From Butyricimonas synergistica DSM 23225 (GTDB taxonomy: Bacteria > Bacteroidota > Bacteroidia > Bacteroidales > Marinifilaceae): 64,000 nucleotides of DNA. Location: contig NZ_KB903367.1 in the NCBI RefSeq assembly GCF_000379665.1, forward strand, positions 124,001 through 188,000, written 5' to 3'. Each line of letters begins with the position of its first letter. The stretch's first letter is position 1. A program made the position numbers and the translations under genes. Positions 4,364 to 25,466 of this stretch are shown one piece after another. The notes below the pieces were generated by a model that did not search any database, had not been told where the DNA came from, and saw only the letters and a program-made list of their open reading frames with translations.

Positions 4364-5419
4364 CTATTTAAAATTTTGCGCAACTTCTTTGATCGTGTCA
4401 ATGACTAGTCGATTTTGCTTCTGTGTACCCAAGGTGATACGCATATGCGTGTTGATGTCTTCTTCGTTCATGAATTTGACGATTAATCCCTTGGCTTTAA
4501 GAGCTTCTTGAAGTTTGGCTTTCATGGCAATCGGGTATTTTACCAGGATGAAGTTGGCATCCGATTTATATACTTTAAACCCGTCGAGTCCGCTCAATTC
4601 CTTCATGTACAGTTCTCTGTCCTGTGCCATCAAGTCGGCGATGTTTTGGTAATAATCGCTGGCTTTGAACACGGCAATCCCGATTTCTTCCGTGATCCGG
4701 TTGTAACCGAGGTATTTCGTGCTATAATTCAGGAATGTAGATAAATCGGCACCCATGAACGCGAATCCAAGACGTAAGCCCGGTAATCCGTAGAATTTGG
4801 ATAACGTGCGGATGATTAGGAGATTCGGGAATTCTTCAATCAAGGGTTTGATGTAACTGGTATCTTTGTTCGCGAATGAAGCGTAAGCCTCGTCGATCAC
4901 GATAACTGTTTCCCGGGGGATAAAAGAGAGTATCTCGTGCAATTCTTCTTTTGTCAGCGAATTGCCTGTCGGGTTATTAGGGGATGCCATAAGCACCATT
5001 TCCGGTTTCTCTTTTTCTACCGATTCACGAATGCTTTGGATATCATACTTGAAGGTATTCCCCTCCTCGAACAGGGGATAGAAGATGGTTCTCCCGTTTA
5101 CCTCGTCGGCGATGGATTTGTAGTACCACCACGAGAATTTTGGGATAAGTAACGTTTTCTGTTTTGCGCCTCCAGCTAAAAAGCAGTGAACGACTTGTTT
5201 CAGAATGTCCTCTCCCCCGTAACCTAAGATTACTTGTTTCTCCGGGATTCCGTACAATTCAGATATATAATCGGATAATATACTTTTTTTACCCTCGTCG
5301 TAGATCCGGGTGTAGAAGCATAATTTGTTAGGATCAAAGTTTTTAAGAACTTCGCCGATCTCCGGCGCAGGACCATAGTTATACTCGTTACGGTCCAGGT
5401 ATGCAACTCTTTTTTCCAT
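4364..5419 (-). CDS. PLP-dependent aminotransferase, class I/II (HisC/CobD-like)
   Basis: This 351-residue fold-type I PLP enzyme has MASPNNPTGN (the NPxG substrate loop), VIDEAYASF (the Asp binding the pyridine nitrogen) and RTLSKFYGLPGLRLGFAF (the Schiff-base Lys and phosphate-binding Arg). The family includes histidinol-phosphate aminotransferase and the CobD threonine-phosphate decarboxylase. No other his or cob genes are nearby, and it sits upstream of a nucleotidyltransferase and a TagF-like transferase. A role in making an amino-alcohol or amino-sugar decoration is therefore more likely than histidine synthesis. It is transcribed leftward from a region with a -7 box at 5632 and a 28-bp palindrome at 5544 in the predicted leader. 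Confidence 0.8.
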   Translation of the reverse strand: MEKRVAYLDRNEYNYGPAPEIGEVLKNFDPNKLCFYTRIYDEGKKSILSDYISELYGIPEKQVILGYGGEDILKQVVHCFLAGGAKQKTLLIPKFSWWYYKSIADEVNGRTIFYPLFEEGNTFKYDIQSIRESVEKEKPEMVLMASPNNPTGNSLTKEELHEILSFIPRETVIVIDEAYASFANKDTSYIKPLIEEFPNLLIIRTLSKFYGLPGLRLGFAFMGADLSTFLNYSTKYLGYNRITEEIGIAVFKASDYYQNIADLMAQDRELYMKELSGLDGFKVYKSDANFILVKYPIAMKAKLQEALKAKGLIVKFMNEEDINTHMRITLGTQKQNRLVIDTIKEVAQNFK

Positions 5420-22191: not shown

Positions 22192-22713
22192 ATGGACGAA
22201 GCGTGGGTGATTGAGGAATGCCGGAAAGGTAATCCGAAAGCACAAAAGTTTCTGTATGAATATTTCGCTCCCAGAATGATGGGCGTGTGTATCCGTTATG
22301 CCGGAAATCGGGATGCGGCTGGGGACTTATTGCAAGACGGCTTCGTGAAGATTTTCACCCGATTGAATGAATATACCGCTGCCGGAAGTTTGGAGGGATG
22401 GGTGCGGAGGATTTTTATCAATTGCGCTTTGGAAAAGATTCGCAAAGAAAGAATTTTTTCTAAAGTGATAGAGGGAGAGATTGATGTCGAGGATACCATA
22501 CCTTCGGTTTTGGAAACGTTGACAGAGCAGGAGATGCTGCAAATGATCCGGCAGTTGCCCGAGGGGTATCGTACGGTGTTTAATTTGTTCGCTATCGAAG
22601 GGTTCTCGCATAAAGAGATCGGAGAGATGCTTCATATTACGGAAGGAACCTCCCGCTCGCAATATGCCCGCGCCCGGCAGAGTTTGCAGGAAATGATTAA
22701 AAAGATGTACTGA
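22192..22713 (+). CDS. RNA polymerase ECF sigma factor (sigma-70 family)
   Basis: The 173-residue product has region 2 (FLYEYFAPRMMGVCIRYAGN, then DAAGDLLQDGFVKIF) and region 4 (LPEGYRTVFNLFAIEGFSHK, then EIGEMLHITEGTSRSQYARA). It has no region 1.1 or 3, so it is an ECF sigma factor. The next gene begins 2 nt after its stop and encodes a cytosolic stub plus a transmembrane helix, as expected of an anti-sigma protein. The same operon continues to the lipoprotein-radical SAM pair, suggesting that this sigma factor controls envelope functions including its own operon. No clean TAnnTTTG box is seen upstream. Confidence 0.93.
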   Translation: MDEAWVIEECRKGNPKAQKFLYEYFAPRMMGVCIRYAGNRDAAGDLLQDGFVKIFTRLNEYTAAGSLEGWVRRIFINCALEKIRKERIFSKVIEGEIDVEDTIPSVLETLTEQEMLQMIRQLPEGYRTVFNLFAIEGFSHKEIGEMLHITEGTSRSQYARARQSLQEMIKKMY

Positions 22714-22715
22714 TT

Positions 22716-23852
22716 ATGGATAAGAGAGAGCGATTTGATGATATTTTCCGGGAAAGGCTGTACGATGTGGAATATAGCCCGACGGAAGTTGCTTGGGAAG
22801 GAATTTCCGCCCGGCTTCCTCGTCGTCGGCTTGTTCATGGATGGATACGTCGTGTCGCTGCCGTGGTCGCTTTATTCTTGTTGGCGGTAGGGGGTGTGTT
22901 ATTTTGGTGGTACACGGATGAAGATGATATAGCTGGTCTTGCTGCGGTACAAAAGAGTAATTCAATACCTCTATTCTCAATACCTGATGCCAAATTATAC
23001 GTGGCACCTTTAAGCGTGAGCGAGTTACCTTCTTATGTGCTCGGGAAAGAAGTTTTATCGAAACAATTTGTGCAGGAATGTACTATCACATCGCTTGATA
23101 GCACCTTGTATTTGTCACCTCGTGAAGAGGAAAAATCCTTTATTTCGTTAGTTAGTCATGTTAATGCCCCTTTGGTAAAGAAGTCACCTCGGAAATGGCG
23201 TATTGGCGTGGGCAGTGGGAATATGGGATTAGCAGGAGTTTCTCTAAATAATGGTGGTGATATGGCAGCGATGGATAACGTATGGAATGATAATTCCAAT
23301 CCGAATGATGAAGATGAGCCCCTTTTATCCCGGGCAACTTCGACTCCTAGTTATTTGCCGGAGAGAACTACCCGGGTAAAACATTCCATGCCTATTTCGT
23401 TCGGGGTATCTTTGTCTTACCCGATAAACGAACGTTGGAGTTTTCAAACCGGATTGACATATACATACTTGCGTTCCAAATGGAAATATGTATCGAGCGA
23501 TCGGGTTGTTCAGAAACAATCATTGCATTTCTTGGGCATGCCGGTTTCTGTGAATTATCGATTAACCAATTGGTCCCGTCCATATTGTTATTTTAATGCG
23601 GGAATACTGGCAGAGGTGAACCTTGCCGGAAAACTTAAAAACTCGTACGGGTACGAACATATTTGTATCCCGGGAGTGCTATGGACGACGTATGCCCGTG
23701 TTGGGGTTGCTTACCCGCTTATCCGTTTTGTTTCGGTATATGCGGAAGGAGGAATTTGTTACTATTTCGATTACAAGGGAACTGTTGAAACGAAGCGTTC
23801 TGAAAATGCTTTCAATTTTACGGGACAGCTGGGATTACGATTGAACTTTTAA
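22716..23852 (+). CDS. Single-pass membrane protein with C-terminal outer-membrane-type beta-barrel; possible anti-sigma factor
   Basis: This 378-residue protein has three parts. Residues 1-46 are cytosolic, charged and Arg-rich (RERFDDIFRERLYDVEYSPT), and residues 47-68 are a strong transmembrane helix. A linker of about 130 residues follows, and from about 215 on there are alternating beta strands ending LRLNF with the C-terminal Phe typical of outer-membrane barrels. The barrel resembles PorT-type eight-stranded proteins. The linker is low-complexity and Asn/Asp-rich. It follows the ECF sigma gene by 2 nt. One chain would link cytosol and outer membrane, and could pass an envelope signal to the sigma factor. 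That role is inferred. Confidence 0.75.
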   Translation: MDKRERFDDIFRERLYDVEYSPTEVAWEGISARLPRRRLVHGWIRRVAAVVALFLLAVGGVLFWWYTDEDDIAGLAAVQKSNSIPLFSIPDAKLYVAPLSVSELPSYVLGKEVLSKQFVQECTITSLDSTLYLSPREEEKSFISLVSHVNAPLVKKSPRKWRIGVGSGNMGLAGVSLNNGGDMAAMDNVWNDNSNPNDEDEPLLSRATSTPSYLPERTTRVKHSMPISFGVSLSYPINERWSFQTGLTYTYLRSKWKYVSSDRVVQKQSLHFLGMPVSVNYRLTNWSRPYCYFNAGILAEVNLAGKLKNSYGYEHICIPGVLWTTYARVGVAYPLIRFVSVYAEGGICYYFDYKGTVETKRSENAFNFTGQLGLRLNF

Positions 23853-23869: not shown

Positions 23870-24394
23870 ATGGAATTATCAAAGAATTATTGGAGTAAAA
23901 GTTGGGGTTGGTTGCTTTCTTCTTTTCTGGTAGTGCTTGGCTTTACAGCTTGTGATGATGACACGGGAGGAGAGTGTATGTATGGAAGTCCGACAACAAC
24001 CTTTTCAATTAAAGGAAAAGTACAAAACGAGGTTGGACAAGCTTTGTCCGGAGTTCGGGTGGTTATCCCTAAGTGTGAATTTTATCAAGTTGCCACGGAG
24101 AATTTTATTCCTGATCAACCTATCATGACTGTGGAAATTCGGGATACCTTGTACACGGACAGAGAAGGTCATTTTGAACGTGTGTTTTATGATTTTCCCG
24201 CGGATACAGTTCGCTACGAGATGCAATTTTACGATATCACCCCACAACCGGGTATCCCTCCATATGAACCGGATACATTAAAAGTTACTTTCTTGCGTGG
24301 AGATTTGAAGACAAGTAAAGATGATGGGGAGTGGTATCGTGGACATGCGGAAAAGGAAATCACCGTGGTTTTAAAAGAGAAAAAAGATGAGTAA
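23870..24394 (+). CDS. Radical SAM-associated putative lipoprotein
   Basis: This 174-residue lipoprotein has a signal sequence ending LVVLGFTAC, with the lipobox Cys at residue 28 followed by DDDTGGE. The segment CMYGSPTTTFSIKGKVQNEV starts a carboxypeptidase-regulatory-like beta-sandwich (GQALSGVRVVIP, TDREGHFERVFYDFP). This combination matches the family I know as the radical SAM-associated lipoprotein (TIGR04134-like), always next to a SPASM radical SAM enzyme. The adjacent enzyme gene overlaps its 3' end by 8 nt. The second Cys, in ECMYG, and a third in IPKCEF are candidate modification sites. The acceptor of any modification is unproven. Confidence 0.8.
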   Translation: MELSKNYWSKSWGWLLSSFLVVLGFTACDDDTGGECMYGSPTTTFSIKGKVQNEVGQALSGVRVVIPKCEFYQVATENFIPDQPIMTVEIRDTLYTDREGHFERVFYDFPADTVRYEMQFYDITPQPGIPPYEPDTLKVTFLRGDLKTSKDDGEWYRGHAEKEITVVLKEKKDE

Positions 24395-25466
24395 TAAACC
24401 GGGAATTCGTCAACGTTTGGGATTAGAGGTCTTCCGGGCAAAACGGCAGCAACAAAAAGAGGCGCATGAACTGCGTACATTATTTTGGGAGTGCACGCTG
24501 CGCTGCAATGTTGCTTGTCGTCATTGTGGCAGTGATTGCCGGGCGAGTGTTGAGCAGGCAGATATGCAGAGAGAATATTTCTTGAGGGTGGTCGATTCCA
24601 TTACTCCACACGTGAACCCGCACAAGGTGTTTGTCATATTTACCGGAGGCGAACCTTTGATGCGGGATGATCTGGAAGTTTGCGGGCGTGAATTATACAA
24701 CAGGGAATATCCTTGGGGTATCGTAACCAATGGTCTATACCTTTCCCGTCAACGTTTGGATTCTTTGCTGAAAGCCGGGATGCACTCCATTACGGTCAGC
24801 CTCGACGGATTGGAAGAAGCCCACAATTGGCTTCGTCGCCACCCGAAAAGTTTCCAACAGGCAACGGGGGCAATCCGGATGCTTGCCCGTGAGGAGGAGA
24901 TTATTTGGGATGTGGTGACTTGCGTAAATCAAAACAATATCGACCAATTGCCCGCCTTGCGGGATTATCTCATCGGGATAGGTGTGAGGCGTTGGCGTAT
25001 ATTTACCATATTCCCGGTTGGTCGTGCTGCGGATATTCCCGAGTTACAACTTTCTGACAAACAATTTGTAACGGTATTGGATTTTATCGAATCTACCCGT
25101 CGGGAGAATAAAATACAACTCAACTTCGCTTGCGAAGGATTTCTCGGTCGGTATGAAGCGAAAGTCCGGGATTATTTTTACCATTGTAATGCTGGTATTT
25201 CTGTCGCTTCTGTCCGGGTGGACGGTTCCATCTCGGGATGTCCCAGCATTCGGGCGAATTATAATCAAGGAAATATCTATCAGGATGATTTTATGCAAGT
25301 GTGGAATGAGCGTTTCGCACCTTTTCGTGACAGAGAATGGGCTAGGCAGGGGGAGTGTGCCGATTGCTCCATGTTCCGATATTGTGAAGGAAACGGGATG
25401 CACTTACACGATGAAACAGGTAAACTCCTTGTGTGCCACTTCAACAAGCTAAAGTCCAAAACGTAA
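24387..25466 (+). CDS. Radical SAM/SPASM protein of the rSAM-lipoprotein system
   Basis: The 359-residue enzyme carries the radical SAM cluster motif C40-NVA-C44-RH-C47, flanked by extra cysteines at 36 and 51. VIFTGGEPLMRDDLEVCG is the GGE motif and ITVSLDGLEEAHNWLR is a SAM-binding strand. The C-terminal SPASM-type cysteines lie in YHCNAGISVASVRVDGSISG and CPSIRANYNQGNI, then GECADCSMFRYCEGNG and VCHFNK, for auxiliary iron-sulfur clusters. It is the TIGR04133-type partner of the lipoprotein just upstream. Start and stop overlap by 8 nt, so synthesis is coupled. The likely role is post-translational modification of a peptide or of the lipoprotein before export. The reaction is not known. Confidence 0.85.
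   Translation: MSNKPGIRQRLGLEVFRAKRQQQKEAHELRTLFWECTLRCNVACRHCGSDCRASVEQADMQREYFLRVVDSITPHVNPHKVFVIFTGGEPLMRDDLEVCGRELYNREYPWGIVTNGLYLSRQRLDSLLKAGMHSITVSLDGLEEAHNWLRRHPKSFQQATGAIRMLAREEEIIWDVVTCVNQNNIDQLPALRDYLIGIGVRRWRIFTIFPVGRAADIPELQLSDKQFVTVLDFIESTRRENKIQLNFACEGFLGRYEAKVRDYFYHCNAGISVASVRVDGSISGCPSIRANYNQGNIYQDDFMQVWNERFAPFRDREWARQGECADCSMFRYCEGNGMHLHDETGKLLVCHFNKLKSKT

Follow-up and report, generated by a model that had tools for sequence, protein, structure and literature searches.

Which residue does the radical SAM enzyme of this locus alter, and by which reaction? The first-pass annotation of the window (the whole analysed stretch of 64,000 nucleotides from Butyricimonas synergistica DSM 23225) had described a modification system composed of the enzyme and a partner lipoprotein, and had left both points unanswered. 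The candidate substrate lipoprotein (TIGR04134; 23870-24394, + strand, 174 aa; assigned by profile score, sequence and alignment A3) is made up of a signal peptide, the lipobox Cys28, an acidic DDD, a linker with CMYGSP and a C-terminal domain; its hydrophobic signal and lipobox (..LGFTAC28) are followed by DDDTGGECMYGSP. The lipid-attachment Cys28 with Asp29-31 lies at 23951..23962 (+), whereas Cys36-Met37-Tyr38-Gly39-Ser40-Pro41, the proposed modification site (X-Y-G = Met37-Tyr38-Gly39), is located at 23975..23992 (+). The radical SAM/SPASM enzyme (TIGR04133; 24387-25466, + strand, 359 aa; profile score, Pfam Radical_SAM and SPASM) starts inside the lipoprotein reading frame, the two overlapping by 8 nt, and carries its cluster motif C40-x3-C44-x2-C47 at 24504..24527 (+). 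The annotated coordinates, lipobox Cys, ECMYGSP, overlap, cluster motif and additional C-terminal cysteines were all present in the sequence, and the gene order and short gaps fit the apparent ECF sigma operon at whose end the pair had been placed: an ECF sigma factor as first gene (22192-22713, +; TIGR02937, 85.6 bits at a cut-off of 42.9), an outer-membrane beta-barrel protein (OMP_b-brl_2; 22716-23852, +; Pfam PF13568, 3e-9), the lipoprotein and the enzyme follow each other with gaps of 2 nt and 17 nt and then the overlap; the next gene downstream, tag, is on the - strand. In the barrel protein, a charged N-terminal region precedes a single transmembrane-like segment (by eye) and the C-terminal OMP_b-brl_2 domain; beside the sigma gene, the protein looks like an anti-sigma/barrel fusion across the envelope.

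The search with NCBIfam profiles that had been suggested along with the annotation placed both proteins in the rSAM/lipoprotein families, the enzyme reaching 600.6 bits against TIGR04133 (curated cut-off 425) and the lipoprotein 94.9 bits against TIGR04134 (39.8). The two genes are adjacent, and the enzyme contains CxxxCxxC, PF04055 and PF13186 and lacks the Cys that would align with residue 337. One copy of each family above cut-off is present in the genome; the lipoprotein had no Pfam match at E <= 0.01 and in NCBIfam matched TIGR04134 alone. Both families are uncharacterised, and the window pair is an ordinary member that does not differ from the TIGR04133/TIGR04134 pair as defined in NCBIfam. 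The regulatory-like beta-sandwich that had been read into the lipoprotein is tentatively upheld by CarboxypepD_reg-type Pfam matches that related lipoproteins give, none of which reaches the gathering cut-off, and by weak PDB profile matches (NOMO2 at 1e-4; TonB-receptor, SusC and transthyretin-like chains at 0.15-0.25).

The site of action was approached through the proteins encoded next to related enzymes, in a sample of 122 loci with 124 enzyme ORFs, own copy included (loci L002-L011 and L049-L058, brought in by other matches, were excluded); 110 enzymes were classed as core (at least 340 bits in phmmer against the window enzyme), 12 as "low" and 2 as "far" (L141, L142). The genomes are related, so that the places are not independent of one another, and one and the same enzyme appears in both L018 and L086. 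Adjacent exported partners (same strand, within 420 nt, hydrophobic segment at hydropathy 1.5) varied widely yet mostly shared X-Y-G-x-P: under this fixed rule, an adjacent exported ORF with YG was found at 104/110 core places and one with YG..?P at 96/110, the corresponding figures being 11/12 and 11/12 for the "low" places and 0/2 for the "far" ones. The rule had been changed from an earlier filter (1.6, 700 nt) after the misses were known; the earlier filter gave 112/124 places with YG and 103/124 with YG..?P, with YG..?P in 16/464 background ORFs (13/233 of the exported ones). In an independently chosen set of 112 partners, for which the nearest upstream exported small ORF per enzyme was taken and the motif not consulted, Tyr-Gly occurred in 106 (shuffles: mean 40.6, maximum 54; 300 runs) and YG-x(1,2)-P in 97 (mean 3.7, maximum 12; 300 runs). 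An unbiased two-residue scan of the 112 mature regions ranked Y..P first (94 versus 22.4 expected), G.P fifth and YG sixth; the ranks in between were taken by W..G, AC and F..C, the latter two ranking high because of the lipobox. Reduction to ten single-linkage representatives left YG in 6/10 (2.2 expected), where it was not first and where several representatives were wrongly chosen neighbours, e.g. an ABC protein. The invariance of Y38, G39 and P41 in the 35 lipoproteins of alignment A3 is not independent evidence, because its other members were chosen by the YG..?P filter and L020 was then dropped.

The motif does not belong to one protein fold. A sandwich profile built from the post-motif part of the 35 aligned lipoproteins was found in 99 of 141 exported YG..?P ORFs near an enzyme and was absent from 42, six of which were judged by eye to be chance occurrences (L031, L063, one of L083, L105, L109, L127). 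Coiled-coil-looking lipoproteins carried one to three [VL]YG[STPV]P sites (L045, L048, L061, L066, L067, L073, L078, L079, L083), and short low-complexity lipoproteins carried KYG[IV]P, often at the C-terminus; repeats within one partner protein, two or three copies in some, occur for instance in L048 and L096; six YG..?P ORFs were present in L069, four small YG-bearing ORFs (two with YG..?P) in L085, and a single downstream protein of L095 contained DDVEC[IV]YGPPPG three times. In one partner group the lipid Cys itself takes the X position (..FQACYGTPQD). When ten other partner types were compared with NCBIfam, seven had no family above cut-off, one of these (L097) scoring 31.2 bits against TIGR04134. 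The YG-x-P motif was thus associated with the enzyme across several scaffolds; judged from these sequences, it is YG-x-P and not the beta-sandwich that travels with the enzyme, and the motif outlives the lipoprotein fold. Its presence on differing, interchangeable carriers is the pattern of a modification site, and we regard Tyr38 of CMYGSP, with its YG-x-P surrounding, as very probably the site that is modified.

The counts also bear on the view that YG-x-P has nothing to do with the enzyme and is one of the common sorting or linker motifs of lipoproteins. It frequently stands just past the lipid Cys, and chance occurrences exist: among 333 exported background ORFs, 91 contained YG and 30 YG..?P, and in the window YG-x-P occurs twice in one other ORF (4364-5419) among the 60 that reach 150 aa. 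However, about two thirds of the 30 background ORFs appear on inspection by eye to be additional lipoproteins belonging to the same clusters, and the motif also occurs at C-termini and in secreted proteins that have no lipobox (..AQYGAP in L072 and L082), so that this explanation is scarcely credible. A further partner of the lipobox-less type reads ..AQYGSW (L092). In L072, L082 and L092, where these partners lie downstream of the enzyme, cleavage by signal peptidase I might leave Gln exposed as X, a situation for which the Bacteroidetes Q-rule paper reportedly points to pyroglutamate. The X residue over 145 sites was Glu in 36, Cys in 33, Met in 18, Lys in 18, Val in 16, Leu in 12 and another residue in 12, and a sactionine-type thioether at Cys36 was rejected because Cys is not regular beside the motif (33/145 sites). 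The recurrent L-G-F before the lipobox, considered as a hint that the signal peptide might double as a leader, divided the 106 YG-bearing partners into 47 "LGF-like", 54 other and 5 not assigned.

Nine places did not yield a YG partner under the fixed rule: three at contig edges (L068, L117, L137), one missed by the filter (L115, which has CYGTPQD), the two "far" ones and three genuine cases (L071, L076, L102), in which TIGR04133-like enzymes have at least 2 kb of sequence on each side and no YG partner nearby. The latter suggest that some enzymes may act in trans and would suit a reading of YG-x-P as a docking or recognition tag, the modified residue lying elsewhere (e.g. the lipid Cys) or the real substrate being another protein. 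A search for trans substrates with TIGR04134 at E <= 0.001 found none in the genomes of L071 (G132) and L102 (G175); the genome of L076 (G174) has three matches and contains another pair. Against such a tag stand the position of the motif, which by a rough rule lies 1 to 80 residues past the lipid Cys in 100/101 partners and 168 residues past it in one, and its repetition within one protein, which fits several sites better than a single docking tag; we consider this explanation unlikely. Two further arrangements were observed. In L140 the immediate partner (spanning the 217 nt ahead of the enzyme frame and its first 65 nt) reads AACYAPAPY in place of CYG-x-P, and KYGAPPLVKYGSP is found in a different lipoprotein, encoded some 3 kb upstream; L098 and L108 each encode two tandem TIGR04133-like enzymes, each enzyme with its own lipoprotein (CAKYGDIYD, ACYGTPHD).

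The enzyme itself is strongly conserved in its potential metal ligands. C40, C44, C47, C51, C249, C267, C285, C324, C327, C333 and C350 were each present in 110/110 core homologues and C179 in 109/110; residue 339 was His in 108/110 and Cys in two, which represent one tandem-enzyme type of L098 and L108. The Cys aligned with residue 337, part of the usual SPASM CxxxC, is absent. Together with C249, six SPASM cysteines and His339 (the region with C267, C285, C324, C327, C333, H339 and C350 spans 25185..25436, +) would provide eight candidate ligands, a number sufficient to ligate two auxiliary clusters fully. Before SPASM, C249-E-G-F-L-G-R-Y-E257 (25131..25157, +) includes a segment resembling GYYGPYE of the Nostoc, Azospirillum and Aureibacter enzymes; in the alignment, G-[FYW]-x-G-x-[YF]-[ED] was shared by most TIGR04133 rows and these three enzymes, deviated in Tropicibacter (GYFSPFE), Agathobacter (GYYSNKD) and the "low" TIGR04133 group, and was missing from the sampled MftC, PqqE, TIGR04053 and TIGR04347 rows. 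In a tree of 35 proteins TIGR04133 and its distant relatives formed their own clade (100/99) on a long branch, and the Nostoc, Azospirillum, Aureibacter, Tropicibacter and Agathobacter enzymes formed a neighbouring clade (92/89); the root is arbitrary and AhbD/NirJ lay outside the sampling, so that a sister relationship of TIGR04133 to the spliceases was not adopted.

Outside its own family, the window enzyme scored highest with the profiles of AhbD (129.6 bits), TIGR04053 (128.4 bits) and NirJ2 (128.1 bits), slightly above the best RiPP-maturase profiles TIGR04103 (113.2 bits) and TIGR03913 (107 bits); all five profiles match 45/45 aligned members at E <= 1e-10. The small advantage of AhbD and NirJ2 would agree with a radical SAM enzyme of the tetrapyrrole type that makes a product for the lipoprotein to bind, but both scores fall well short of the cut-off (about 130 bits against 500), and a carrier whose scaffold changes while a four-residue motif stays is ill-suited to form a cofactor pocket; this reading is very improbable. 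The TIGR04053 score, too, is far below cut-off, and its two aligned rows lack the Cys at 267 and 285.

As regards the reaction, the motif recalls the substrate site of the PlpX-type spliceases. According to excerpts of the splicease papers, PlpX cuts out tyramine at Xaa-Tyr-Gly, the natural PlpXY sites are MYG and LYG, and one precursor can undergo several splicings (PMC11002830, PMC10533398, PMC10373908). In the excerpted tag experiments with FtsZ, both accepted tags contain GYGLPI and LYGLPI tags were tried and not accepted, and another published PlpXY tag type reads GYGVVFP, which means that YG-x-P is not part of all PlpXY contexts (PMC10533398); the InterPro entry IPR026482 is named for PlpX in the excerpt of PMC11002830. 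The window lipoprotein offers an XYG of this kind (MYG) as a putative substrate site. On a Nostoc plasmid, an enzyme annotated as nif11-class maturase 3, the name of TIGR04103 (which we take to be the same family as IPR026482), has a Nif11 precursor encoded ahead of it and a 71-aa protein behind it; the precursor ends with GGRGSIALYGLPPELF, including ALYGLPPELF, so that MYGSPTTTF of the window and LYGLPPELF of Nostoc have the same Y-G-x-P-x-x-x-[FY] layout. The two systems are alike in the radical SAM and SPASM domains, in the X-Y-G substrate motif, in the possibility of several sites per precursor, in the Pro two residues past Gly (shared by the Nostoc precursor and some of the tags excerpted) and in the G-[FY]-x-G-x-Y-E segment, which 3/5 of the PlpX-like enzymes examined possess. 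They differ in that the window enzyme remains at 113.2 bits against a TIGR04103 cut-off of 725, belongs to a separate clade and lacks one SPASM Cys, with His339 nearby; its substrates would be exported lipoproteins, and a nif11 or NHLP leader was not detected on the window lipoprotein with Pfam and NCBIfam. A general Pfam and NCBIfam scan of eight window proteins revealed no PlpY-like RRE partner, and X is mostly Glu, Cys, Met or Lys in TIGR04133 partners, in contrast to the Met and Leu given for PlpXY in the excerpts.

A related comparison concerns the GDL-motif maturases (TIGR03913 and relatives), for which 6/9 DUF1843-type precursors contain PYG, AYG or LYG near the N-terminus (L146, L155, L164, L165) and 3/9 have no YG (LYA, MYA, MYMATV); on the strength of the XYG this GDL-like family may also comprise spliceases. 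Unlike in the window pair, these precursors are very short and without lipobox, and the window enzyme's 107 bits compare with a cut-off of 591.75.

Taken at the level of the protein pair, the enzyme is probably, with considerable doubt as to the last step, a peptide maturase directed at lipoproteins, with the X-Tyr-Gly-x-Pro of its neighbour as target, and most likely works as a splicease; by analogy with PlpX, tyramine excision is the chemistry that we somewhat favor. Counted against splicing are the position outside the TIGR04103 profile, the slightly higher AhbD, TIGR04053 and NirJ2 scores, the separate clade, the RRE and the nif11 leader that were not seen, the PlpXY tag lacking YG-x-P and the LYGLPI tags not accepted in FtsZ, the missing SPASM Cys, the differing X residues, the altered G-[FY]-x-G segments, the partnerless L071, L076 and L102, the CYAP of L140 and the 6/10 representatives. 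A different reaction at the same YG-x-P site (Tyr cross-link, epimerisation, oxidative decarboxylation or hydroxylation) is a possible, though rather doubtful, alternative: the association of the site with the enzyme is independent of the reaction type, and the enzyme lies outside the splicease clade and differs in its auxiliary-cluster ligand pattern. As excerpted, a report on the mycofactocin maturase describes decarboxylation and cross-linking of a Tyr (PMC8326336), and an aromatic residue at motif position 7 or 8 (Tyr = 1), present in 90/145 sites, could be a cross-link partner; however, this residue is far from universal, and the Nostoc precursor next to a PlpX-like enzyme contains XYGxP as well. 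What had been left blank in the first-pass annotation is thereby narrowed to YG-x-P, which tracks the enzyme and resembles the splicease XYG site, the chemistry being proposed from this resemblance.

If the enzyme is a splicease, it would modify the precursor while this is still cytoplasmic, ahead of Sec export: a 5'-deoxyadenosyl radical formed at the radical SAM cluster would start the attack at Tyr38, and splicing would act on Met37-Tyr38-Gly39 to leave a reactive ketone (alpha-ketoamide) in the backbone. Export of the prelipoprotein and its lipidation at Cys28 would follow, and the product would be presented at the surface of the cell or on vesicles. Bacteroides surface lipoproteins have a lipoprotein export signal (LES) after the lipid Cys, as stated in an excerpt of PMC6222051, and the similarity of Cys28-Asp-Asp-Asp to this signal suggests that the product may be surface-exposed. 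At the surface the ketone might, speculatively, serve as an electrophile, either as a protease trap or as a covalent anchor; spliceotide products are described as protease inhibitors in the part of PMC11117315 consulted.

Within the order of the window, TIGR04133 matches at E <= 1e-70 were found in 96/393 sampled genomes (own included), 87 of them above cut-off. A draw of 395 genomes from the phylum contained three with TIGR04133: the window's genome, a second from the order, and G552 from outside it, in which a small ORF beside the enzyme carries EYGVREP. The closest of the eight named loci listed was Butyricimonas sp. Marseille-P3923, with an enzyme identity of 87%. The Butyricimonas relative at L012:4930-6008 encodes two tandem lipoproteins with SMYGSP and LMYGTP, where the window has one, and the commensal Parabacteroides distasonis has the pair at L144. 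The pair is not confined to Bacteroidota: an enzyme annotated as TIGR04133 is encoded on a plasmid of Treponema saccharophilum together with a lipoprotein containing SCYGMPENYY. It lies at L143:2800-5092 on a 424-kb plasmid and adjoins an Mpi-family DNA invertase gene, a location that suggests horizontal transfer.

Conservation of the sigma-barrel genes with the pair, which the first-pass annotation had put forward for survey, was confined to two places: among the 78 loci whose upstream flank reaches 2.9 kb, only L012 and L013 had strong homologues of both just upstream, and the idea of a conserved sigma/barrel sensor module as general partner was rejected for this reason. The barrel alone was upstream in L037 (short flank), and weaker ECF sigma matches occurred 3.3-3.8 kb upstream in L098, L106 and L108 and downstream in L102. 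Judged from these flanks, the sigma/barrel operon is lineage-specific; of the hinted regulation by an envelope signal, the operon in the window stands, and the rarity of sigma and barrel genes upstream elsewhere makes the hint a faint one.

A search of one literature collection found no publication on TIGR04133/TIGR04134 or the rSAM-lipoprotein pair, and the titles and opening lines of abstracts of the splicease and spliceotide matches listed contained nothing on a lipoprotein-paired system; the most relevant paper is said to be Scott 2022 (Chem), which may already cover TIGR04133 enzymes. What is likely to be new here is a probable modification site for the uncharacterised TIGR04133 family, which occurs in 96/393 sampled genomes of the order yet has no assigned reaction; the named residue and the mass shift expected from splicing (about -135.07 Da per XYG) make the reading directly testable. 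A natural splicease without RRE, if confirmed, would be useful for protein labelling. If splicing is true, envelope lipoproteins would join RiPP precursors as targets of protein backbone editing, and abundant gut bacteria would carry a reactive alpha-ketoamide.
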